Assembly: GCF_000373145.1 (NCBI RefSeq)
Contig: NZ_KB890603.1
Location: 248,001-312,000, forward strand
Source: Thermus oshimai DSM 12092
Lineage (GTDB): Bacteria; Deinococcota; Deinococci; Deinococcales; Thermaceae
Length of the DNA: 64,000 nt
Reading direction: 5' to 3'
A program made the position numbers and the translations under genes. Shown here one piece after another: positions 1 to 35,246 of this stretch. Numbering within the stretch: position 1 is the first letter of the stretch; every line of letters begins with the position of its first letter. The notes under the pieces were generated by a model. The model was not told the origin of the DNA and did no database searches. It was given only the letters and a program-made list of their open reading frames with translations.

Positions 1-1225
1 GTTTCTGGGCTACACCACCCTGGAGGGGGAGGGGGAGGTCCTCCTCCTCCTGGCCGGGGACCAGGCCCTTTCCGAGGCCGGCCCCGGCACGGAGGTCCAG
101 GTGGTCTTGGACCGCACCCCCTTCTACGCGGAAGGGGGCGGGCAGATCGGGGACTTTGGCCTTTTGGAGTGGACAGGCGGCCGGGCCCGGGTGGAGACCG
201 TGCACAAGACGGAGAAGGGCCTCTTCCTCCACCGGGCTAAGGTGGAGGAGGGGGTCCTCCGGGTAGGCGAGAAGGTGCGGGCGGTGGTGGACCCCAAACG
301 GCGGGACACGGAGCGCCACCACACCGCCACCCACCTCCTCCACGCCGCCCTACGGGCCGTGCTCGGCCCCCACGTGCGCCAGGCGGGGAGCCTGGTGGCC
401 CCCGATAGGCTCCGCTTTGACTTCACCCACCCCGAGGCCCTGACCCCGGAGGAGCTTGAGCGGATAGAGCTTTTGGTGAACCGCTGGATCATGGCGGACT
501 TCCCCGTGACCTGGCGCTACCTCCCCCTGGAGGAGGCCAGGCGGGAGGGGGCCATGGCCCTCTTCGGGGAGAAGTACGGGGAGGTGGTGCGGGTGGTGAC
601 CGTGGAGGGGAGCCCCTCCAAGGAGCTCTGCGGGGGCACCCACGTGCGCCGCACGGGGGAGATCGGGGCCTTCCTCATCGCCCGGGAGGAGGCGGTCTCC
701 GCGGGGGTCAGGCGGATCGAGGCCGTGGCCGGGGAGGCGGCCCTCCGTTTCGCCCGCGGGGCCTTGAACCGGCTGAAGGCCCTCTCCGAGCGCCTCGAGG
801 TGGGGGAGGCCGCCCTGGAGGAGCGCCTGGAAAAGCTCATGGCCGAGCTCAAGGCCAAGGAGAAGGAGGTCCAAAGCCTACGGGCCCGGCTGGTGCGGGC
901 GGAGCTTAGGGAGGGGGTGGCCCTGAAGGAGAAGGGGGGCCTCCGGTATGGGGGGGCGGAGCTCCCGGGGCTGGACGGGTCTGCGCTCCGCCAGGCGGCG
1001 GACGACCTGGTGGCGAGGGGGGCGGACGTGGCCCTGGTCCTCTCCGGGGGGCAGGCGGTGCTGAAGCTCTCCGAACGGGCGCGGGAAAGGGGCCTCGAGG
1101 CCGGCGCCCTCTTCCGGGCCCTCGCGGAGCGGGCGGGGGGCCGGGGGGGCGGGAAGGGCGCTTTGGCCCAGGGGGCGGGGCTGGACCCGGAAAAGGCCTT
1201 GAAGGCGTTGGAGGACCTCCTCTAA
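1..1225 (+). CDS. alaS: alanyl-tRNA synthetase, C-terminal part (5' end outside window)
   Basis: Charges tRNA-Ala with alanine in the cytoplasm and hydrolyses mischarged tRNA. The reading frame is open from base 2, so the gene starts upstream of the window; about 407 residues are visible, roughly the second half of a normal ~880-residue AlaRS. The editing domain carries the zinc/active-site motifs HTATHLLHA and CGGTHV. A coiled-coil stretch rich in Glu, Leu and Lys follows, then a C-terminal DHHA1-type domain rich in glycine (GGGKGALAQGAG). The stop at 1223-1225 is followed by the promoter of the next gene. Identification is secure; only the N-terminal catalytic domain is missing because of the window edge. 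Confidence 0.97.
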   Translation, partial: FLGYTTLEGEGEVLLLLAGDQALSEAGPGTEVQVVLDRTPFYAEGGGQIGDFGLLEWTGGRARVETVHKTEKGLFLHRAKVEEGVLRVGEKVRAVVDPKRRDTERHHTATHLLHAALRAVLGPHVRQAGSLVAPDRLRFDFTHPEALTPEELERIELLVNRWIMADFPVTWRYLPLEEARREGAMALFGEKYGEVVRVVTVEGSPSKELCGGTHVRRTGEIGAFLIAREEAVSAGVRRIEAVAGEAALRFARGALNRLKALSERLEVGEAALEERLEKLMAELKAKEKEVQSLRARLVRAELREGVALKEKGGLRYGGAELPGLDGSALRQAADDLVARGADVALVLSGGQAVLKLSERARERGLEAGALFRALAERAGGRGGGKGALAQGAGLDPEKALKALEDLL

Positions 1226-24507: not shown

Positions 24508-24728
24508 TGGCCGGTACCCCTTACCGCAGGCTCCTCACCGCCCCCAGGCCCGTGGCCGAGGGGCTTAGGGCCAGGCTGGAGGCGGGGGGCATCCCCGTGC
24601 TCCTGGAAACCCCCTTTTCCGACCTCCCCGAAAGCTACCTGGGCACCTACATGGGGGACGTGACCCTGTGGGTGCCCGAGGGGCTTTTGGCGGAGGCGGA
24701 GGCCCTTTTGGAGGAGGGGATCCCATGA
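24492..24728 (+). CDS. small DUF2007-like protein
   Basis: 78 residues starting at the ATG inside the end of the peptidase gene: MERRVVAGTPYRRLLTAPRP ... VTLWVPEGLLAEAEALLEEG. The ending VPE-x2-AEAEALLEE is the hallmark of small proteins with a 'putative signal-transducing' (DUF2007) fold. The function is unknown. It ends in an ATGA overlap with the ROK kinase, so translation is coupled. Confidence 0.7.
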   Translation: MERRVVAGTPYRRLLTAPRPVAEGLRARLEAGGIPVLLETPFSDLPESYLGTYMGDVTLWVPEGLLAEAEALLEEGIP

Positions 24729-25630
24729 CGGTGGTGGGGCTGGACCTGGGGGGGACCAAGATCGCCGCGGGGGCCTTTGACGGGGAAAGGCTCCTTTCGG
24801 AGGTGGTCCTCCCCACCCCCAAGGAGGGGGGGATGCGGGTGGTGGAGGCTCTGGCGGAGGCCGCCCTACGGGCGGAGGCCGAGGCCGGGGTGCGGGCGGA
24901 GGCCTTTGGGCTTGGCACCCCGGGGCCTTTGGACTTCGCTAGGGGCCTCATCCGCTTCACCCCCAACATCCCGGGCCTTAAGGACTTCCCCATCCGGGAC
25001 CTCCTGAGGGAAAGGCTTGGCCGCCCCGTCCACTTGGAAAACGACGCCAACGCCGCCGCCCTCGCCGAGCACCACCTGGGGGCGGCCCGGGGGGAGGAGA
25101 GCTCCCTCTACCTCACCGTGTCCACGGGGATCGGGGGCGGGGTGGTCCTGGGGGGGCGGGTCCTCCGGGGGGTGCGGGGGCAGGGGGGGGAGCTCGGCCA
25201 CATCACCCTCCTCCCCGGGGGGCCCGCCTGCGGGTGCGGCCTCGAGGGCTGCCTCGAGGCCCTGGCCGCGGGCCGGGCCCTGGAGCGGGAGGCGGGCTAC
25301 GCCTACGGGCTTCTGGTGGACACCCGCGAGCTCTTCCGCCGCTATGGGGCGGGGGACCCCAAGGCGGAGCGCATCCTCCTCCAGGCCGCCCGCTACGTAG
25401 GCCTGGGCCTGGCCAGCCTGGTGAAGGCCTTTGACCCCGGGGCGGTGGTGGTGGGCGGGGGGGTGGCCCTGAACGCCCCCGAGGGCTACTGGCAGGCCCT
25501 GGAGGGGGCCTACCGCCATTACCTTCAGGGCTGGGAGGTGCCCCCCCTCCGGAAGGCCCTTTTGGGAGCCCGGGCGGGGCTTCTGGGGGCGGCCCTCACG
25601 GCGTATCTTGAGGGGGATGGAGCTCGGTAA
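24725..25630 (+). CDS. ROK family sugar kinase, probable glucokinase
   Basis: 301 residues from the ATG giving MTVVGLDLGGTKIAAGAFDG; a longer frame upstream is excluded by the preceding gene. The phosphate-binding DLGGTK, the catalytic Asp in HLENDANAAALAEH, the STGIGGG loop, and the ROK zinc site GGELGHITLLPGGPACGCGLEGCLEA (His plus three Cys) are all present. Glucose is the most common substrate of this subtype. ATGA-coupled to the small gene upstream. Confidence 0.92.
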   Translation: MTVVGLDLGGTKIAAGAFDGERLLSEVVLPTPKEGGMRVVEALAEAALRAEAEAGVRAEAFGLGTPGPLDFARGLIRFTPNIPGLKDFPIRDLLRERLGRPVHLENDANAAALAEHHLGAARGEESSLYLTVSTGIGGGVVLGGRVLRGVRGQGGELGHITLLPGGPACGCGLEGCLEALAAGRALEREAGYAYGLLVDTRELFRRYGAGDPKAERILLQAARYVGLGLASLVKAFDPGAVVVGGGVALNAPEGYWQALEGAYRHYLQGWEVPPLRKALLGARAGLLGAALTAYLEGDGAR

Positions 25631-25832
25631 GGCCCTTTTGGTCCTTGGGCTTTTCCTCGCCCTTCTTGGGGTTATCCTCCTCTACTTCCCCAAGCTCTTC
25701 GCCTGGTTCGGCCACCTTCCGGGGGATATCCGCATTGAGCGGGAGGGGGTAAGGGTGTACATCCCCCTAACCTCCTCCCTCCTCCTCTCCCTTTTCCTTT
25801 CCCTCCTCCTCTACCTCCTGGGCCGCCGCTAG
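25617..25832 (+). CDS. DUF2905-like two-helix membrane protein
   Basis: 71 residues: two transmembrane helices (ALLVLGLFLALLGVILLYF and SSLLLSLFLSLLLYLLG) around a conserved loop FGHLPGDIRIEREGVRVYIPL, which is typical of DUF2905. The ATG at 25617 is chosen over a TTG nine bases earlier. It overlaps the kinase by 14 bp and the convergent regulator gene by 66 bp. Confidence 0.8.
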   Translation: MELGKALLVLGLFLALLGVILLYFPKLFAWFGHLPGDIRIEREGVRVYIPLTSSLLLSLFLSLLLYLLGRR

Positions 25833-27476
25833 GGGGTAGGCGGGAAGGGTCCCGGGGCGCAAGGCGTGGAGGGCCAGGCGGAAGGCCACCACCCCGGGGC
25901 CTTCCACCTTAAGCCGCACCCGCCCCCGGGGGAGGAGGAAGCGGTAGAGGAAGGTGGGGAGGAGGGGGAGGAGGAAAAGCCCCCCCTCAGAGGTGGCCTC
26001 TGCCCCCACCCAGAGGAGGGCCTGGGCGTGGGGGGTTTCCAGCCGGAGCCGGGGCTTGGGGCCTTCCTGAAAGAAGGCCGCCTGGCCGGAGAGGACCAGC
26101 ACCCCCTCCTCCAGGAGGCCCAGGTCCAGGTAGGCGGTTTCCCCAGGCTCCAAAAGGGGGGCCACCCAGCCCTCCCCTTCCGCCTCGAGGCCCTCCTCCC
26201 CCTCGGGGCAGAGGGCCCGTTCGGGGCCCAGCCCCACCCGGCGCTCAAGGGGGGGAGGCCCGGGGGCCAGGGCCAGCCGGGCCTCCTTGGGCAGGTGGGG
26301 GAGGAGGTCTCCCACCTCCCCCCCACCCCTTTGCCGGTGGTAGAGCTCCAAAAGGGTCAGCCCCGCCAGGGCCAGGGTTAGGGCGGCCAGGGCGTGGAGC
26401 TTGACCCGCTGGCCGGAGGGGAGGATCTGGTAGAGGAGGTGCCGCTCCCACTCCCGGGCGAAGCGCCACCCCTCCCGGTAGCAGAGCCAGCCCTTCCGCT
26501 CCAGCTCCTCCAGATGGGGCAGGGCCTCCAGGGCCTGGAGAAGGGGTTCGGGGATGGGCCCGGGCTGGATGGCAAGCCTTTCCAGGGCCTCCCGGGCGGG
26601 CCGGCTCAGGTAGCGGGCCCGGAACCGGAGCTGGGCCAGGGTGCGCTGGGGGATGCCCGGGGCCTGGAGGAGCTCCCGCAGGGCCTCGGGCTCCCCGCCC
26701 CCTTCCAGGTAGATCCGCCCCGCCTGGGAGAAGGAAAGCCCCCTCAGGACCCCCTGCTGGGCTTCTTGGAACGTGAGGGGCTTCAGGGCCACCACCCGCA
26801 TCCTCTCCGCGGGGTAGCGGGCCCGCAACTCCAGAAGGAGGCGGGGGTCCTCCCCGGGGTCCACCCCCAGGACGTAGAGGGTCTTGGTGTCCCCCAGGAT
26901 GGCCTCGGCCCCTTCGGGAAAGGGGGCCTCCAGGTAGCGCACGCCCCCCCGCCCCACCCCCAGGTGGAAGGGCAGACGTAGGGCCTCCGCCAGGGCCTGG
27001 GCCAACTCCTTCCGCCCCGAGGCCTGGGAGCCCAGGAGGACCAAGAGGGCCGGGGGGCGGAGGGCAGAGAGGGCCTTCAGGAGCCCCGCCCGGTCGGGGG
27101 GCGGGGGCGGGGGGGTGAAGCGGCGCTCCAGCACCCAGTCCGCGAACCCCGGGATGGCCTCGAGGCCCTCCAGGATCTCCCCCTCCCCCTTCGTTTCCAG
27201 GGCGATCCACTCCGGAAGGACCAGGGGGTCCTGCCCCTCGGGGAAGAGGGGGCGGCCCAGGGCGGCTTTCAGGCGGTGGAGCTCCACCCGCAGGTTGTTC
27301 AGGCCCTGGGGGTGGCCGTAAAGGAGGTCCGCCAGGAGGACCCGGGTGGTGGGGCCTTCCAGGGCCAGGTAGTAGAGGAGGGCCAGGCCCTTTAGGGGCA
27401 CCCGCACCGGCCGCCCTCCTTTTAAAAGCCGGGGCGGGCCGAAAAGGGGCAGGGTGTAAAGGCAGGTGTTACTCAT
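25767..27476 (-). CDS. SARP-like transcriptional regulator with degenerate NTPase region
   Basis: 569 residues. Residues ~1-115 match the OmpR-like winged helix plus start of a bacterial transcriptional activator domain found in SARP/AfsR-type regulators (LPLFGPPRLLKGGRPVRVPL ... LNNLRVELHRLKAALG). A P-loop-like GSQASGRKE at ~149-157 lacks the standard GKS/T and may not bind ATP. Residues ~290-350 look like the winged-helix part of STAND ATPases. The hydrophobic stretch ~359-380 could be a transmembrane helix or the buried helix that follows in STAND proteins. The C-terminal ~180 residues are beta-rich with no known match. It is divergent from the fibre-like locus, which it probably controls. 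Confidence 0.75.
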   Translation of the reverse strand: MSNTCLYTLPLFGPPRLLKGGRPVRVPLKGLALLYYLALEGPTTRVLLADLLYGHPQGLNNLRVELHRLKAALGRPLFPEGQDPLVLPEWIALETKGEGEILEGLEAIPGFADWVLERRFTPPPPPPDRAGLLKALSALRPPALLVLLGSQASGRKELAQALAEALRLPFHLGVGRGGVRYLEAPFPEGAEAILGDTKTLYVLGVDPGEDPRLLLELRARYPAERMRVVALKPLTFQEAQQGVLRGLSFSQAGRIYLEGGGEPEALRELLQAPGIPQRTLAQLRFRARYLSRPAREALERLAIQPGPIPEPLLQALEALPHLEELERKGWLCYREGWRFAREWERHLLYQILPSGQRVKLHALAALTLALAGLTLLELYHRQRGGGEVGDLLPHLPKEARLALAPGPPPLERRVGLGPERALCPEGEEGLEAEGEGWVAPLLEPGETAYLDLGLLEEGVLVLSGQAAFFQEGPKPRLRLETPHAQALLWVGAEATSEGGLFLLPLLPTFLYRFLLPRGRVRLKVEGPGVVAFRLALHALRPGTLPAYPLAAAQEVEEEGKEKGEEEGGG

Positions 27477-27553
27477 GAATAAAAAGGCATTACGGCCTTA
27501 GGGCTCATCTTAGCACAGAACCCCCGGGGTGCTTCCATAAGGGTCTGGGCACC

Positions 27554-27587
27554 GGTAACGGCCGGGTAACGCCCTTTTGGGTACTCT
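27554..27587 (+). promoter_or_regulatory. activator-type promoter: GGTAACG direct repeats before -10 TACTCT
   Basis: GGTAACG occurs at 27554-27560 and again at 27565-27571, an 11-bp period with a 4-bp gap. That is the spacing known for SARP binding sites. Ten bases further is a possible -10, TACTCT (27582-27587), with no -35 hexamer, as expected if an activator is required. The neighbouring divergent gene encodes a SARP-like protein. The rest of the 27477-27553 gap holds a possible minus-strand -10, TAAGAT (27507-27512), for the regulator gene. Confidence 0.55.
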
Positions 27588-27592
27588 CATCT

Positions 27593-27623
27593 CGCCTTCA
27601 GGGGCCACCACCCCATGAAGGCG
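27593..27623 (+). promoter_or_regulatory. 5'-end mRNA hairpin before the subunit-like gene
   Basis: CGCCTTCA-GGGG pairs with CCCC-A-TGAAGGCG: 12 base pairs with one bulged A and a 6-nt loop. It sits at the expected 5' end of the transcript and 6 nt ahead of a strong GGAGGAG ribosome site. A 5'-terminal stem of this sort commonly protects abundant mRNAs. Confidence 0.6.
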
Positions 27624-27640
27624 GATTAAGGAGGAGATTT

Positions 27641-28465
27641 ATGCGGAAGATTTTGGTAGCGGCATTGGCCCTGGCCCCCCTGGCCTTGGCCCAGCAGGTG
27701 AGCCCCACCACGGGGAACGGCCCCGACGCCTACGCGAAGGGCGAGAACTCCGCGGCGGTGAACCAGGTCATTGAGCTCATCCTCCCCAAGGCCACGGCCC
27801 TCCACCTGGACGTCACCACCTTGACCTTTGACCTGACCAGCCTGGACGGGGCGCAGTGGCCCAACTCCACGCCGGACTTCGGCAACCAGATGGTGTGCGT
27901 CTACGGCCTCACCGACCAGGACGTCAAGACCCAGCTGGGGGACAACTTCTACAACCAGGTCCAGACCCTCCCCCTGGGCACCAGCTACTCTGCGGCCCAG
28001 TGGCCCTACATCGCCATCAACGGCGGCGGTCCGGTCACGGCCTACCCCCCCATCAAGCTGGACAAGGACGGACAGCTGGTCCCGGGAAGCAAGAACCACT
28101 TCGTCTGCTACCGCACCTTCATCCTGCAGAAGTTCTCCAACGGCAAGAGGTGGGAACTCCAGGTGAGCCGCAACGACCCCCAGGGCGCGCAAGGGATCCA
28201 GCACCTCTACATCCAGGACAACCCCTGCGACACCTTCGGCGCGGCCACGGGGCTTTACGAGCTCCCCAACGGGGCGAGCCTCCAGCTGGTGCCCAAGAAC
28301 CTGCAGGCGGGCCCCACGGGCTCAAGGAGCGGCAACAACCCCCAGCGGTGCGGCTACAAGAGCTGGCTGGATGACCTGGTCGTGGTGGCGGTCAAGGTCA
28401 ACAGCGATCTCTGGGGCAAGAGCACCGCGAACTTGACCTACACCCTGGCCACCACCGCCTGGTAG
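27641..28465 (+). CDS. secreted subunit-like protein, first gene of fibre-like locus
   Basis: 274 residues with a signal peptide (MRKILVAALALAPLALAQ). The mature protein is rich in Asn, Thr, Val and Tyr, has four Cys spread through it (NQMVCVYG, HFVCYRTF, NPCDTFG, RCGYKSW) that could form two disulfides, and ends in beta-strand-like LTYTLATTAW. It has no family match I can name. Strong ribosome site, 5' mRNA hairpin and a perfect hairpin after the stop suggest a highly expressed structural protein, possibly the main subunit of a surface fibre or layer. Confidence 0.7.
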   Translation: MRKILVAALALAPLALAQQVSPTTGNGPDAYAKGENSAAVNQVIELILPKATALHLDVTTLTFDLTSLDGAQWPNSTPDFGNQMVCVYGLTDQDVKTQLGDNFYNQVQTLPLGTSYSAAQWPYIAINGGGPVTAYPPIKLDKDGQLVPGSKNHFVCYRTFILQKFSNGKRWELQVSRNDPQGAQGIQHLYIQDNPCDTFGAATGLYELPNGASLQLVPKNLQAGPTGSRSGNNPQRCGYKSWLDDLVVVAVKVNSDLWGKSTANLTYTLATTAW

Positions 28466-28472
28466 GCCGAGG

Positions 28473-28500
28473 GGGGCCTGGCCCTAAAGGGCCAGGCCCC
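28473..28500 (+). other. intercistronic hairpin, perfect 12-bp stem
   Basis: GGGGCCTGGCCC pairs exactly with GGGCCAGGCCCC around a TAAA loop. No T-tract follows, so it is more likely a partial terminator or 3' stabiliser between the subunit gene and the chaperone-like gene than a full stop. Confidence 0.65.
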
Positions 28501-28513
28501 ACCCCTAAGCGCC

Positions 28514-29347
28514 ATGAAGCGAATCCTCTTTACCCTCCTCCTCCTCCCCTGGCCCGTCCTGGGCCAGAGCACCTTAGGGGTGGAACCCCCCGTCTCCCTG
28601 AGGGAGGCGGCCCCCGGCCAGACCCTGACCCTGGACCTCAAGGTGCACAACGTGGGGGTGCGGCCGGTGCGGGTGCGGGTGAGCCTGGGGGACTGGACCT
28701 ACGACCCCTTGGGGAACATCCAGTTCCTTCCCCCGGGCACCCTCAAGGAAAGCGCCAGCCGCTTCGCCGCCTTCAGCCCCGGGGAGCTCAGCCTGGCGGC
28801 CAAGGCCTCGGGGACCCTCACCTACACCCTCACCCTCCCCAGGGAGATGGCCCCCGGCTCCTACTGGGGCGTGCTCTTCCTGGAAGGGGAGGACCCCAAC
28901 CCCCCGCCCGGGGTGCCCCTGGCCGTCTTCAAGGTGCGCATGGCCCACGTCTTCTACGTGAACATCCCCCCCATTCGCCAGGGGGGGCGGATCCTGGGCC
29001 TCCTGCCCACCCCCCCCAAGGCCCCGGAGGACCCCTACCGCTTCGCCGTCCAGTACCAGAACACGGGGAACGCGGCCCAGAAGCTCTCCGGCCGCTTTGA
29101 GGTCCGGGACCAGGGGGGGCGCACCGTGGCCCAGGTGGAGATAGAGGAGGTGGTGGTCCTCCCCGGGGCGGTGCGGGTCCTTCCCGTGACCCTAGTGGGC
29201 CCTCTGCCTCCCGGGAGCTACACCGCCCTCGTGGTCTTGAACTACGGCGACCCCGCCAAGGACGTGGCCGCGGACCAGCCCTTTACCCTGAAGACCCCCC
29301 TGGCCGCCCCCAAGGCGCCCCAGGAGGGGCAAGGAGGTGCCCCATGA
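28514..29347 (+). CDS. periplasmic chaperone-like two-domain Ig-fold protein
   Basis: 277 residues, signal peptide MKRILFTLLLLPWPVLGQ. Two Ig-like halves: residues ~22-145 (LTLDLKVHNVGVRPVRVRVSLGDW ... APGSYWGVLFLEGE) and ~165-265 (RFAVQYQNTGNAAQKLSGRF ... LPPGSYTALVVLNYGD). This is the pattern of pilus-assembly-chaperone-like proteins (PapD-like and related), though the classic chaperone motif is not present and a structural role is possible. There is no recognisable ribosome site at this ATG. The stop overlaps the next ATG (ATGA). Confidence 0.65.
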   Translation: MKRILFTLLLLPWPVLGQSTLGVEPPVSLREAAPGQTLTLDLKVHNVGVRPVRVRVSLGDWTYDPLGNIQFLPPGTLKESASRFAAFSPGELSLAAKASGTLTYTLTLPREMAPGSYWGVLFLEGEDPNPPPGVPLAVFKVRMAHVFYVNIPPIRQGGRILGLLPTPPKAPEDPYRFAVQYQNTGNAAQKLSGRFEVRDQGGRTVAQVEIEEVVVLPGAVRVLPVTLVGPLPPGSYTALVVLNYGDPAKDVAADQPFTLKTPLAAPKAPQEGQGGAP

Positions 29348-29823
29348 GGCTACCAGCCCTTCTCCTTCTCCTTTCTTCCGCCTGGGCCCAGGCCACCTGG
29401 ATCGTCCAGACCCTGATCCCAGAGACCATCGCCATCCGCACCCCCACGGTGGAGATCGCCTTTGACCTGAAGGACTACCCCCCCAAAAGCTTCCCCGCCC
29501 AGTACCCGGCGAGCTTCCCTGAAGGGGTGTTCCCCGTCCAGGTCTACGCCAACGCCCCCGGGGTCTGGAGCCTGCTCCTGCAGATCCCCGACCTCAAGGA
29601 CCCCACCGGGGAGGTGGTCCTGCCCGCGCGCCAGATCCTCTACCGGGTGAACGGGGGGCTTTGGCTGCGGGCGGATGGCACGCCCCAGATCCTCTACACC
29701 CAAGCGGGGCCCACCCCGGGCTGGCTGGAACTCAGGCTGGAGTTCGCCCTGGAGCTTTTGGGAACCGAGCGGGCCGGGCGCTACGCCGTCCAGGCCCTGA
29801 TCACCGCCCTAAGGCAGCCTTAA
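29344..29823 (+). CDS. secreted subunit-like protein in the fibre-like locus
   Basis: 159 residues; signal peptide MRLPALLLLLSSAWAQA. The mature part is a predicted single beta-sandwich (VEIAFDLKDYPP, VQVYANAPGVWSLLLQI, WLELRLEFALELLG) that ends RAGRYAVQALITAL, like the last strands of small fibre subunits that end in Y-x-V-x-h-x-h. No named family. Coupled at both ends: ATGA overlap before it and one base to the next gene. Best guess is a minor or tip subunit. Confidence 0.6.
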   Translation: MRLPALLLLLSSAWAQATWIVQTLIPETIAIRTPTVEIAFDLKDYPPKSFPAQYPASFPEGVFPVQVYANAPGVWSLLLQIPDLKDPTGEVVLPARQILYRVNGGLWLRADGTPQILYTQAGPTPGWLELRLEFALELLGTERAGRYAVQALITALRQP

Positions 29824-29824
29824 G

Positions 29825-32800
29825 ATGCGAAGCCTCGTCCTCCTCCTCCTCCTCCTCGGTCTGGCCCTGGCCCAGGTGCGCCTGGGCCCCCTGCCCCCCC
29901 TCCAAGGCCCCCCGGGGGCCTACCTCAGCCTGAGCGTGGAGGCCGAGGGCCAGGGGGAGGTCCGCTTCCGGCTCCTCCTCCCCGAGGGCTGGCAGGCCCT
30001 TTCCGACACCCGGGAGGCCCTCCTGGAGGGGAAGGGGGTGGTGGCCTTCACCCTGAGGGTGCCCGAGGCCCCCGCGGGCATCCGGGCCCCGGTGGCGGTG
30101 GTGGCCCACCAGGGCGGGGTGGAGGTGGCCAGGAGCCAGGGGGTGGTGGAGGTTCTGGCCCGCACCGAGCTCCGCCTTTCCGTTCCGGAGCGCCTCGAGG
30201 CCCCCCTGGGGGCCCCCTTTGAGTTTCCCCTTTACCTGGTGAACGCCTCCAACCACAAGGAGACCGTATTCCTGCGGGCGGAAGGGGCGGTTTTTCAGAT
30301 CTACCTGAACCCCCAGAGCCTGGACCTGGACCCGGGGGAGGCCCGGAGCGTCCGGGTCACGGTGGTCCCCCAGGGGGAGGTGAGCTCGGGCTACCCCTTT
30401 TACCTCAAGCTGCGGGCCGAGCCCCGCTCCGCCCCCCAGGCCGCCCGGGAGGTGGGGGCCCTCATCCTCTTCATGGATCCCCTGATGGCCTCGGGCCGGG
30501 GCAAGGACCCCGAGCTCACCCTGGCCCTGCGCATGGGGGTGGGCCTGGGCCTGGCCCTAACCCCGGGGGCCGCCCCCGCCTTCTCCCTGGGCTACACCCT
30601 GGCCCCCACCCTGAGCGGCGCCCTTTCCGACTACTACACGGCCACCCTGGAGACCGCCCCCCTTTCCGGCACCTGGCAGGACCCCTGGAACCCCCCCCAG
30701 AGCGCGGGGTTCAGCCTCAAGGGGGAGGGCCTGGAGGTGCGGGGCACCTACGGGGGAGGAAGCTACCGCCTCCAAAGCGCCCTCCGGGCCGGGGCGGTGC
30801 GGAGCAGCCTGGACCTGGGCCACCAGCCGGGGGGGGTCTGGAGCCTGGCCCTGGGGGCGGTGAGCCAGGACCCGGGGCTGGACCTCCAGGGGAGCCTTTC
30901 CACCCAGATCAAGCCCGATGGCCGCCAGGACGCCCTGGGGGTGCGCTACCGCCTGCCCCTGGGGGGCGGGTTCCTCCTGGGGGCGGGGCTGGACCTGGCG
31001 GGGCGGATGGCGGAAGGGTACGCCCTTGCCCTGGCCCTGCAGGAGAGCCTTTCCTGGCAGACCCAGGACCTGGACCTCACCCAGACCTACGCCGGGGTGC
31101 CCGCCGCGGGGCTCCACGCCTTTGGCCTTTCCGGGGGAACCCGCTCCCTCTACCCCCTGGGCCTCCGGGGCCAGACCAGCCTCCAGCTTTCCGGCCAGGG
31201 GGGGCTTTGGCAGTCGGGCCTGACCCTTTACCTGCAGCCCGTCCCCGGGGCCTTTCTGAGCCTGGGGGGCACCTACCGCCAGGCCCCCGAAGGCCGCTCC
31301 TTCGGCCTCGCCCCCGGGCTTTCCGCCGCCTTCGCCGAGCCTGGGGTCTACGCGGGCAGCCTCTACCTGGCCTACGGCCTGACCCGCCTCCTGGAGGGCC
31401 AGGGGCTGGAGGGCGAGACCTTCCAGGCGGGCCTTTCCCTAACCGCGGGGGAGCTCTCCCTCTCCGGGGGGGTTCTCCTGAAGGACCTGGGGGCGAGGAG
31501 CCTCGAGGCCTCCTTGGGCCTCCGCTACAGCCTTGGGGCCCTGGGCTACCTGCAGGCCCTCTACCAGCAAAAGGAAAGCCCCGAAGGGCAGAGCCTCCTC
31601 TACGGGGGGAGCTGGAGCCAGCTCTGGGAAGGGGGGCTTGTGAGCGAACTCCTCTACCGCCGAGAGGTGAAGGAGGGCCAGGGGGGGCACCGCTTCGGCT
31701 TAACCTTAAGCCAGCGGGACTTCCTCCTTCCGGGCCTGAGCCTGGGCGGGGGGTACGCCCTCCTCCTCCTGCCCGAGGGCCCCCGCCACGCCTTCAGCCT
31801 GAGCCTGGGCTACACCCAAGCCCTCACCTTCCCCACCCCCAGGCCGGTGGTGGACCTCTTCGGGGGCCGGAAGGGCGGGGAGGTGGCGGGGCGGCTTTTC
31901 CGGGATGGGAACCTGAACGGCCAGCCGGACCCGGGGGAGGAGGGGCTTCCGGGGGTTCGGGTCTGCCTGGGCTCCGTTTGCGAGGCCACGGACGGGGAGG
32001 GGCGGTTCCGCCTCCTGGTGCCCGTGGGCCGCTACGCCTGGACCTTCCAGGGCCTTCCCGCCACCTTGGCCCTCCTCTCCGAGGCCCCGGTCCAGGTGGA
32101 GCTGAACGCCCGCCTGGCCCAAGACCTCCCCGTGGCCCCGGCGGTGGCCCTGGAGGTGTGGGTTCTGGACGACAAGAACGGCAACGGACAGGAAGACCCG
32201 GGGGAACACGGCATCGCCTACGCGGGGGTGTGCGCCGAGGGGCCTGTGACCCGGTGCGCCCGGGCGGACGAAAGCGGCCGCGCTCTGATCCCTGGCCTTT
32301 TCCAGGGCACCTACCGCCTGAAGGCCGACGCCCGCTACCTGCCCCCGGGGTACGGGCCGGGCCTCGAGGCCACCCTCCAGGTCACCCCCCCCGCGGCCCC
32401 CATCCCCCTGCGGGTCACCGCCTTGCCCCCTAAGCGGGAAGTGGAGATCACCTACCGGGCGGGGGACCTGGCCCTGGTGGGGAGCGTGGCCCCCTTGACC
32501 CCCGTGGCCGGGGAGGAGGTGGAGGTGCGGGCCCTGGCCCAGGGGGCCCCCGAGGCGGTCTACCTCCTCCTCCCCGAAGGCCCCGTGGCCCTGGAGCCCC
32601 AGGGGGAGGGGTACTTCGCCCGCCGCCTCCGCCTCCGGCTCCCCCCCGGCTACCACACCCTTACCCTCCGGGCGGTGAAGGGCGAGGAACGGGTGGAAAG
32701 CCCCTTGGGCCTCCTCCTGGCCCAGGGGCCTCTTTACAGCCCCCAGACCGCGGAAAGCCAACCCCTCCGCTTGGTCCTCCGTTTCCGGGCCCGGGCTTTG

Positions 32801-32974
32801 CGCCTTCTGGGGGAGGGAGGGGTTTACGAGCTTAAGAGCAAGGACGGGTACACCTGGGAGGGGACCTTGCCCCTCACCGGGGAGCACACCCTCAAGGTGG
32901 TGGCGGACGGGGAGGAGCTCGGGCCCCTCCTCCTGCGCCTGCCCAAGGAAAGCGCCCAGGAGGGCGCCCCTTAA
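29825..32974 (+). CDS. large outer-membrane barrel protein, usher-like, with SdrD-type domains
   Basis: 1049 residues, signal peptide MRSLVLLLLLLGLALA. Residues ~20-210 are Ig-like (PFEFPLYLVNASNHKETVF). Residues ~220-675 consist of many short amphipathic strands rich in Gly, Ser, Tyr and Leu, as in a large beta-barrel. At ~692 (FRDGNLNGQPDPGEEGLPGV) and ~780 (DDKNGNGQEDPGEHGIAYAG) there are two Ca-binding SdrD/Cna-B-like domains. A further beta-rich tail follows. Barrel size and position after chaperone- and subunit-like genes suggest an usher or secretion pore, but PapC/FimD motifs are not clear. Confidence 0.7.
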   Translation: MRSLVLLLLLLGLALAQVRLGPLPPLQGPPGAYLSLSVEAEGQGEVRFRLLLPEGWQALSDTREALLEGKGVVAFTLRVPEAPAGIRAPVAVVAHQGGVEVARSQGVVEVLARTELRLSVPERLEAPLGAPFEFPLYLVNASNHKETVFLRAEGAVFQIYLNPQSLDLDPGEARSVRVTVVPQGEVSSGYPFYLKLRAEPRSAPQAAREVGALILFMDPLMASGRGKDPELTLALRMGVGLGLALTPGAAPAFSLGYTLAPTLSGALSDYYTATLETAPLSGTWQDPWNPPQSAGFSLKGEGLEVRGTYGGGSYRLQSALRAGAVRSSLDLGHQPGGVWSLALGAVSQDPGLDLQGSLSTQIKPDGRQDALGVRYRLPLGGGFLLGAGLDLAGRMAEGYALALALQESLSWQTQDLDLTQTYAGVPAAGLHAFGLSGGTRSLYPLGLRGQTSLQLSGQGGLWQSGLTLYLQPVPGAFLSLGGTYRQAPEGRSFGLAPGLSAAFAEPGVYAGSLYLAYGLTRLLEGQGLEGETFQAGLSLTAGELSLSGGVLLKDLGARSLEASLGLRYSLGALGYLQALYQQKESPEGQSLLYGGSWSQLWEGGLVSELLYRREVKEGQGGHRFGLTLSQRDFLLPGLSLGGGYALLLLPEGPRHAFSLSLGYTQALTFPTPRPVVDLFGGRKGGEVAGRLFRDGNLNGQPDPGEEGLPGVRVCLGSVCEATDGEGRFRLLVPVGRYAWTFQGLPATLALLSEAPVQVELNARLAQDLPVAPAVALEVWVLDDKNGNGQEDPGEHGIAYAGVCAEGPVTRCARADESGRALIPGLFQGTYRLKADARYLPPGYGPGLEATLQVTPPAAPIPLRVTALPPKREVEITYRAGDLALVGSVAPLTPVAGEEVEVRALAQGAPEAVYLLLPEGPVALEPQGEGYFARRLRLRLPPGYHTLTLRAVKGEERVESPLGLLLAQGPLYSPQTAESQPLRLVLRFRARALRLLGEGGVYELKSKDGYTWEGTLPLTGEHTLKVVADGEELGPLLLRLPKESAQEGAP

Positions 32975-32991
32975 AAAAGAAGGAGACGATC

Positions 32992-34161
32992 ATGAGGAAG
33001 ATTTGGCCTATAGCGTTTGCGGCGGCGCTCCTTGCCGCCTGCTCCCAGCCCTCTGGGGACCTGAAGCCCCAGGTGGCCGTGGGGCCGGCCCTCACGGTGG
33101 AGAAGACCGCGGTCCCCCACTTCCGGCGCACCTACCGCTGGACCCTGGAGAAGCGGGTGCTGGACCCCGCAAGCGGCGAACTCACCCTGAGCCCGGGCCA
33201 GCCCTACACCCTCCGCTACCGGGTGGTGGCCAGGGCCCAGGCGGAAGACAGCGGGTACCGGGTGACGGGCCAGGTGGTCTTCCGGAACACCGGCACCAGC
33301 ACCGTGTACCTGCAAACCCCCACGGACACCCTTTCCACCGGGGAATCCGTGGCCCTGGACTGCGGCGTGAGCTTCCCCTACGCCCTGGCGACAGGGGCTA
33401 GCCTCACCTGCACCTACGCCCAGGACCTGCCGGACGGGCAAGACCGCACCAACACCGTCCAGGTGGCCTGGGGTACGGACGGGACGAGCTTCCCCAATAC
33501 CGCCCAGACCCAGGCCAGCTTCGCCTTTACCAACCCCACGGAGGTGGTGGACGAGACCGCCCAGCTGAACGACACCCTGGGCGGGGCTTTGGGGACGGTC
33601 ACCGCCAGCGGCATCGCCTTCCAGCAGGCCTTTGAGTACACCCACCAGGTCCGCTACGACCAGTGCGGGAACTACCGGGTGGACAACCGGGCCCACCTCC
33701 AGACCACGGACACCGGCGCCGAGGCCCACGCCGAGGCCAGCGTGACGGTGCGGGTCCCCTGCCAGGGCTGCACCCTGACCCAGGGCTACTGGAAGACCCA
33801 CTCCCGGGAGGGCCCGGCGCCCTACGACGCCGCGTGGCAGAACCTGGGCTCCCAGGAGGAGGACACCCCCTTCTTCACCCTGGGCCAGACCTGGTACGCC
33901 GTCTTCTGGACCGCGCCCCGGGGGAACGCCTACTACATCCTGGCCCACCAGTACATGGCCGCCAAGCTGAACGTTCTGGACGGGGCTTCTGCGCCAGCTG
34001 AGGTCATGAACGCCCTGAGCGGGGCCGAGATCCTCTTCGGTGGCCTCCCCGCGGGGAGCACCGCCTTGACCTCCACCCAAAGGAGCCAGGCCCTGGCCTG
34101 GGCCAGCCTCCTGGACAGCTACAACAACGGCCTCGTCGGCCCCGGGCACTGCTCGGAATAG
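32992..34161 (+). CDS. surface lipoprotein with DUF11-like and GYWKTH domains
   Basis: 389 residues, lipobox LLAAC at the end of MRKIWPIAFAAALLAAC, good AAGGAGA site upstream. The first ~230 residues form DUF11-like beta-sandwiches (YRVTGQVVFRNTGTSTVYLQ, LTCTYAQDLPDGQDRTNTV). The second part begins CTLTQGYWKTHSREGPAPYD, a module often found at the end of bacterial surface proteins, and is mostly helical. The context makes it the anchored partner or adhesin of the preceding barrel protein; this is inference. Confidence 0.75.
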   Translation: MRKIWPIAFAAALLAACSQPSGDLKPQVAVGPALTVEKTAVPHFRRTYRWTLEKRVLDPASGELTLSPGQPYTLRYRVVARAQAEDSGYRVTGQVVFRNTGTSTVYLQTPTDTLSTGESVALDCGVSFPYALATGASLTCTYAQDLPDGQDRTNTVQVAWGTDGTSFPNTAQTQASFAFTNPTEVVDETAQLNDTLGGALGTVTASGIAFQQAFEYTHQVRYDQCGNYRVDNRAHLQTTDTGAEAHAEASVTVRVPCQGCTLTQGYWKTHSREGPAPYDAAWQNLGSQEEDTPFFTLGQTWYAVFWTAPRGNAYYILAHQYMAAKLNVLDGASAPAEVMNALSGAEILFGGLPAGSTALTSTQRSQALAWASLLDSYNNGLVGPGHCSE

Positions 34162-34171
34162 GGGGTGGGAG

Positions 34172-34597
34172 GTGAGGCACCTTCTCCTCTTGGTCTTGGC
34201 GGGCGTGCTTTCGGCCTGCGGCGCGGCCATCCGCACCAGCGGGGCTCTCCGCATCCTCTCCGTGGCCCCGGACGTGGTGGCGGGCTGCACCGTGCGGGCG
34301 GGGGACTGGATGGCCCTTAAGGGGAACGCCTTCGGGACCCAGGCGGAGTGGGACGCGGGGGTGAACTACGTCCTCTTTCCCCCTGGGGTGAAGGCCGAGC
34401 CCGTGGAGCTCACCCAAAGCGAAAACCCGGCCACCCTCTTCTTCCGGGTGCCCCTCGAGGCGGAAAGCGGCGAGATCCGGGTCCACGTGGAAGGGGTGGG
34501 GGAGGCCTGGATCCCCGTGCGGGTGGAGCCTGCCCTCTCGGTGCAGATGGCCGTGCCCGGGTGCGAGGCCCCCACGCCGCCTTCCGAGCCCCAATAG
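34172..34597 (+). CDS. small lipoprotein with IPT/TIG-like domain
   Basis: 141 residues from a GTG with overlapping GGGAGG; signal MRHLLLLVLAGVLSAC, lipobox LSAC. The mature part has an Ig-like IPT/TIG pattern (AGDWMALKGNAFGTQAEW ... ENPATLFFRVPLEAESGEIRVHVEG) with a Cys pair (AGCTVRAG, PGCEAP). Last gene of the rightward locus, 10 nt after the previous stop and followed by a strong terminator. Confidence 0.65.
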   Translation: MRHLLLLVLAGVLSACGAAIRTSGALRILSVAPDVVAGCTVRAGDWMALKGNAFGTQAEWDAGVNYVLFPPGVKAEPVELTQSENPATLFFRVPLEAESGEIRVHVEGVGEAWIPVRVEPALSVQMAVPGCEAPTPPSEPQ

Positions 34598-34610: not shown

Positions 34611-34639
34611 CCCCCGCCGGGCTTTCCCGGCGGGGGTTT
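34611..34639. terminator. bidirectional terminator between the fibre-like locus and folE
   Basis: 11-bp perfect stem CCCCCGCCGGG / CCCGGCGGGGG with a CTTT loop, followed by TTT on the plus strand. It lies between convergent genes, and the minus-strand reading also forms the stem after folE. Confidence 0.75.
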
Positions 34640-35246
34640 ACTTGAGGTGGTCCAGGAACTCCTCCCGGGTTTTGGCGCTTTCCCGGAACACCCCCAGCAT
34701 GGCGCTGGTGACGGTGCGGGAGTGCTGCTTCTCCACCCCCCGCATCATCATGCAGAGGTGCACCCCCTCCACCACCACCCCCACCCCCTGGGGCTCCAGG
34801 ACCTCCTGGATGGCCTCCGCGATCTGCACCGCCAGGCGCTCTTGCACCTGGAGGCGGCGGGCGAACATGTCCACGATGCGGGCGAACTTGGAAAGCCCCA
34901 GGATCTTCCGGTTGGGGATGTAGCCGATGTGCACCTGGCCGAAGAAGGGGAGCATGTGGTGCTCGCAGAGGGAGTAGAACTCAATCCCCTTGACCACCAC
35001 CATCTCGCTCCCCTCCGCCTGGAAAATGGCGCCGTTGACGATCTCCTCCAGGCTCTGCCGGTAGCCCCGGGTGAGGAAGGCCCAGGCCTTGGCCACCCGC
35101 TCCGGGGTTTTCTTAAGGCCTTCCCGCTCCGGGTCCTCGCCGATGAGCCTGAGCCACTCCTCGGAAAGGGCCTGCAGGCGCTCCAGGTCCACTTCCGTGA
35201 CGAAGCTCAGGCCGGTTTCTTCAATCTCCACCATTCTGCGTTCCAT
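34638..35246 (-). CDS. folE: GTP cyclohydrolase I
   Basis: Zn-dependent opening of GTP to dihydroneopterin triphosphate, the first step of folate synthesis. 202 residues; zinc ligands Cys and His in [15 protein letters not shown] and the second Cys in [15 protein letters not shown], with [22 protein letters not shown] in the core. The start could instead be the Met five codons in (MVEIEETGL); the first 30 residues are a variable extension in this family. Confidence 0.96.

Follow-up and report, generated by a model that had tools for sequence, protein, structure and literature searches.

Which assembly route, if any, is encoded by a regulator gene and six divergently oriented genes for secreted proteins in Thermus oshimai DSM 12092? 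The locus lies in the window, a stretch of 64,000 nucleotides, and was described in an earlier note as a SARP-controlled, chaperone-usher-like surface locus. It is best explained as an usher-like export-and-assembly operon for a surface fibre of A, built from divergent parts, a reading to which we assign a probability of about 0.58. In its arrangement, and probably also in its mode of action, the locus resembles a chaperone-usher operon, without being a demonstrated member of that class.

The gene layout reported previously, with R diverging from six rightward genes for secreted proteins, was confirmed together with its coordinates (Table 1). A to D have N-terminal signal peptides, and lipoboxes were found in E (LAAC) and F (LSAC). 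B and C overlap by 4 bp and the gaps between C and D, D and E, and E and F are 1, 17 and 10 bp, respectively. B to F are thus tightly packed, no two neighbours being more than 17 bp apart. A and B are separated by 48 bp. A scan for sigma-70-type promoters found none. The terminator proposed downstream of F corresponds to a strong stem between the convergent genes F and folE.

Table 1. Features of the locus (positions in the window) and predicted domains of D (residues). Domain borders are our reading of the strand list and the Pfam matches.
Feature	Position	Strand	Description
ROK kinase gene	24668-25630		flank of the locus
R	25767-27476	-	569-aa regulator gene, divergent from A-F
A	27641-28465	+	274 aa, secreted; putative major fibre subunit
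Hairpin A/B	28473-28500	+	perfect 12-bp stem, GGGGCCTGGCCC-TAAA-GGGCCAGGCCCC
B	28514-29347	+	277 aa, secreted; two-Ig, chaperone-like (WxLIP-like by profile)
C	29344-29823	+	159 aa, secreted, single-copy; A homologue; putative tip/base or adaptor subunit
D	29825-32974	+	1049 aa; predicted usher-like outer-membrane protein
E	32992-34161	+	389-aa lipoprotein
F	34172-34597	+	141-aa lipoprotein
Stem-loop F/folE	about 34611-34636		GC-rich, terminator-like, CCCCCGCCGGG-CTTT-CCCGGCGGGGG; F and folE convergent
folE	34638-35246		flank of the locus, convergent to F
D, two Ig-like domains	residues about 20-217		AlphaFold2
D, barrel	residues 230-670		AlphaFold2; about 26-28 strands, count read from the DSSP string only
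D, two SdrD_B-like domains	residues about 680-865		AlphaFold2 and Pfam
D, two C-terminal Ig-like domains	residues about 880-1042		AlphaFold2

The R|A-B-C-D-E-F block is a real conserved module and more than a chance arrangement. It is complete in 13 of 27 Thermus species, the window included, where it occupies one chromosomal site flanked by the ROK-kinase and folE genes. In at least 10 other Thermus genomes this site is empty, with the same two flanking genes only about 204-545 bp apart. Hence, the block occurs as a whole or not at all, which may reflect either loss or insertion. Relatives of B were detected in 19 of 27 Thermus genomes with B as query, and a scan of genome contigs with B resulted in matches in Thermaceae only. 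Among 111 Deinococcota genomes, 46 carry B and D together, 6 only B and 8 only D (Fisher p = 2.6e-16, which overstates independence because the genomes are related). That the genes belong together, as had been proposed, is borne out by this co-occurrence and by the synteny kept in Thermus and beyond. Copies of the type R|A(1-3)-B-C-D-F recur across the Deinococcota, with R|A-B-C-D-F in other families of the phylum. R divergently adjoins A in most module-bearing loci. F lies beside D or E and does so in further families of the phylum too, and E was found with the module in Thermus and in a single further genus of the Thermaceae. Apparent A-B-C-D gene sets, assigned by order, size and D match, were found on three Deinococcus plasmids, all annotated as hypothetical proteins.

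The 1049-residue protein D was previously suggested to be a barrel with SdrD-type domains, and our analysis agrees on both points. SdrD_B passes the Pfam cut-off, and a large barrel is predicted by AlphaFold2 with a mean pLDDT of 86.9 (34 sequences); the pTM of 0.54 leaves the placement of the domains uncertain. Among solved structures, the ushers FimD and PapC rank first in the Foldseek comparison of D with the PDB, with alignments of about 770 columns and a best E value of 2.5e-15. The ushers are matched with low TM-scores (0.2-0.37), barrel-only usher entries score like TonB receptors (about 1e-6), and unrelated Ig-repeat chains, including cilia proteins, rank close behind the ushers. The low TM-scores and the parity of barrel-only entries with TonB receptors indicate that the usher ranking stems from the Ig-barrel-Ig arrangement. 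In the model this arrangement is usher-like, and the barrel by itself would not identify an usher. The barrel of ushers has 24 strands and encloses a plug (PMC8410936). In the AlphaFold2 model of D the strands are continuous from residue 230 to 670, without a domain-sized insertion that would represent a plug. PF00577, the usher family of Pfam, did not match any of 19 D proteins at E<=1 and gave no match in the 111 Deinococcota genomes, with a positive E. coli control. Profile-profile comparisons of D resulted in 1.7% with FimD and 2.5% with EcpC. Since PF00577 and the plug are two defining features of ushers and neither was found, the locus is not filed as a chaperone-usher member.

All Pfam matches of B were below threshold, with WxLIP_PGBD (PF06030) appearing weakly in 12 of 20 B proteins and PapD_N and PapD_C in none. 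In profile-profile comparisons B aligned to WxLIP at 97% over 232 columns including both Ig domains, to EcpB at 84-92% and to FimC at 0.2%. Here, the reference WxLIP and WxL proteins were taken from plasmids and a consensus sequence served as bait only. B also matched the N-terminal domains of D at 96.5%, thus its Ig similarity is partly generic; the low values of WxLIP with D (0.7%) and EcpB (0.2%) argue for some specificity of the B-WxLIP match. Profile matches between B and A, B and F, and C and D were inflated by signal peptides and disappeared after trimming. WxLIP was proposed to complement the WxL domain by inserting a beta-hairpin strand (PMC10599100), an idea of strand complementation akin to that of pilus chaperones. 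B lacks a C-terminal transmembrane helix and ends in a Pro/Gly-rich tail. In the control genome of Thermotoga maritima, a diderm, PF06030 was found above cut-off, and WxLIP-like proteins may therefore also exist outside the Gram-positive bacteria.

A and C are homologous, as judged from a profile-profile match of 97%. In an alignment of 38, Cys86 and Cys156 of A are invariant. The AlphaFold2 model of A has a pLDDT of 85 and places residues 18-51 outside any sheet. No PDB entry matched this model at E<=0.001 in Foldseek. The listed matches with a probability above 0.5 comprised FimG, PapE, the PapG pilin domain and a subunit of the Sulfolobus thread (0406), a donor-strand filament matching weakly at 0.69, all of them donor-strand proteins and all with E values that are not significant. 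These predicted fold similarities lean weakly to donor-strand pilins, which is a lead rather than a proof. For the Sulfolobus thread, we know of no usher or two-Ig chaperone partner. Matches of A to AHD and TCR chains were rejected, as they were below any cut-off. The profile of C aligned to WxL at 32% with the W-x-L motif and the C-terminal P in register, and that of A at 1%. Neither protein had a Pfam WxL match or a profile match to FimA or EcpA. Single-sequence and profile searches of the PDB as well as Pfam scans with A, B, C and F yielded nothing conclusive.

A hairpin follows the last A gene in nearly all loci in which A lies next to B. Stem lengths are about 10-16 bp, the loops span 3-6 bases, and folding z-scores computed against mononucleotide shuffles are about -2 to -8, with weaker values in the long gaps of loci L087 and L088. 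Gaps between A genes are devoid of a hairpin (z about 0) with one exception in locus L086. The stems differ in sequence between lineages, with GC, CG, AT, TA and GU at the same stem positions, where pairing is given by construction because the stems were chosen by folding. A hairpin after the last A and none between A copies is expected if A is made in excess. An ordinary full terminator was rejected as the sole reading of this element; most copies lack a T-tract, and B to D follow closely.

R combines a SARP-type winged helix (about residues 5-75) with a degenerate AAA/STAND-like middle part, suggested by weak AAA matches, and a beta-rich C-terminus. Its N-terminal OmpR-type winged helix matched a SARP-type protein encoded elsewhere in this genome at 96.8% (hhalign). 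The BTAD domain (PF03704) is absent from R and its relatives, and a search of the own genome found three other proteins with this domain and not R. The classification as a SARP-like regulator thus holds for the winged helix and fails for the BTAD domain; the AAA-like middle and the beta-rich C-terminus further set R apart from SARP regulators. The term SARP-controlled in the earlier note was overstated, with control of the locus suggested by the divergent position of R. The lipoprotein E contains a CTLTQGYWKTH motif, which is also known from other secreted proteins, and has no Pfam match above cut-off.

As an usher-like assembly operon, the locus would provide A as the abundant structural subunit. 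The hairpin after the last A gene may attenuate read-through or protect the upstream mRNA, resulting in an excess of A over B to F. In the periplasm, the two-Ig protein B would bind and stabilise A and C, the latter being a candidate tip, base or adaptor subunit. D would form the outer-membrane platform, with its N-terminal Ig domains receiving B-subunit complexes. The barrel would be the pore for export, and the SdrD_B and Ig domains following it would gate this pore and hand over subunits to the fibre, which would presumably form by donor-strand exchange. The lipoproteins E and F may serve as anchors or helpers in the outer membrane, and the divergently transcribed R is likely a local regulator. 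No report of such a fibre was found in the literature.

Chaperone-usher systems (FimC/FimD, PapD/PapC and the alternative EcpB/EcpC) share with this locus the order of parts, a two-Ig periplasmic partner, secreted beta-rich subunits with often duplicated genes and, according to the prediction for D, a large outer-membrane barrel between Ig-like domains. This supports the previously proposed order subunit-chaperone-subunit-usher. The locus could thus be a true but highly diverged archaic or alternative chaperone-usher member that lost the plug and the PF00577 signature, in line with the usher matches of D and the B-EcpB alignment. Deinococcus-Thermus has been named among the hosts of archaic systems (PMC4654587), although the 111 genomes examined may lack those species. 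However, in contrast to ushers, D contains neither PF00577 nor, in its model, a plug insert, is predicted to have more than 24 strands, carries SdrD_B domains after the barrel and is hardly alignable to FimD or EcpC by profile. Neither A nor C matches FimA or EcpA, B does not match FimC, and the lipoproteins E and F are additional components. We consider such a membership unlikely. D might instead be an outer-membrane porin or receptor, with neighbours belonging to an unrelated envelope complex and an usher resemblance arising from a generic combination of barrel and Ig domains. The similar scores of barrel-only ushers and TonB receptors and the high ranks of unrelated Ig-repeat chains are consistent with this, but B, C and D are closely conserved together with a duplicated subunit A and the hairpin, which renders it very improbable. 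Of the surface-fibre and export reading in the earlier note, the barrel with its usher matches and the synteny stand, whereas PF00577, the plug and a classical PapD match were not recovered.

The Gram-positive WxL/WxLIP clusters (DUF916-DUF3324) offer a different comparison, as B aligns to WxLIP over both Ig domains and one Ig-pair protein is combined with two related partners, as is B with A and C. Such clusters commonly pair one WxLIP with two WxL proteins, one small and one large (PMC10599100), resembling B, C and A. In a Gram-negative counterpart, B would hold the WxL-like A and C on the surface or the peptidoglycan in a static complex, leaving D only as an outer-membrane anchor or adhesin and not as an assembly pore. 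The weak PF06030 matches of B and the register of the C-WxL alignment would fit, but PF06030 stays below cut-off, the value for C is low and that for A is negligible, so that A and C are not demonstrable WxL domains. Furthermore, B is without the C-terminal membrane helix, and the WxL clusters are without a barrel partner, whereas D is present here in a diderm host. This counterpart is distinctly unlikely. The usher-like export-and-assembly operon that we favour could, though less probably than not, belong to a separate, undescribed class of outer-membrane fibre assembly in the Deinococcota, with a plug-less usher-like pore, a WxLIP-type chaperone and a subunit family of its own. Such a class would join WxL clusters and chaperone-usher pili in a common ancestral scheme of an Ig chaperone and a strand-complemented subunit. 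The suggestion in the earlier note that a different assembly route may be involved gains support from the missing PF00577 and plug and from WxLIP as the nearest relative of B.

About half of the 111 Deinococcota genomes carry relatives of B and D, though without an usher family match, and in three annotated records these are listed as hypothetical proteins. If fibres are built, a chaperone-usher-like route would be added in a deep-branching diderm phylum, and Thermus would have a second type of surface filament besides type IV pili. It could also link the WxL surface complexes to chaperone-usher pili. The roles now predicted for the individual parts are open to test by deleting the genes.

A second, paralogous locus was found in about nine Thermus species. 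It consists of R divergent to a duplicated A family of two or three copies, followed by B, C and D, and its B is 36-39% identical. Two species, G021 (L017) and G003 (L018), have the paralogous locus only, with an empty site at locus 1, indicating that the two loci were gained or lost independently. In G008, one locus is intact except for D (L035:6498-9613), which a frameshift splits into parts of 865 and 175 codons, and D fragments are located elsewhere in G001 and G008, which suggests decay of the paralogous locus. Other Deinococcota contain a further set of B and D genes (L093, L095-L104) with D nearby on the opposite strand and B beside subunit-like secreted proteins that share the C-terminal pattern ...G.Y...TY....P. 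The profile of C matched some of these subunit-like genes, at 97% and 96%.
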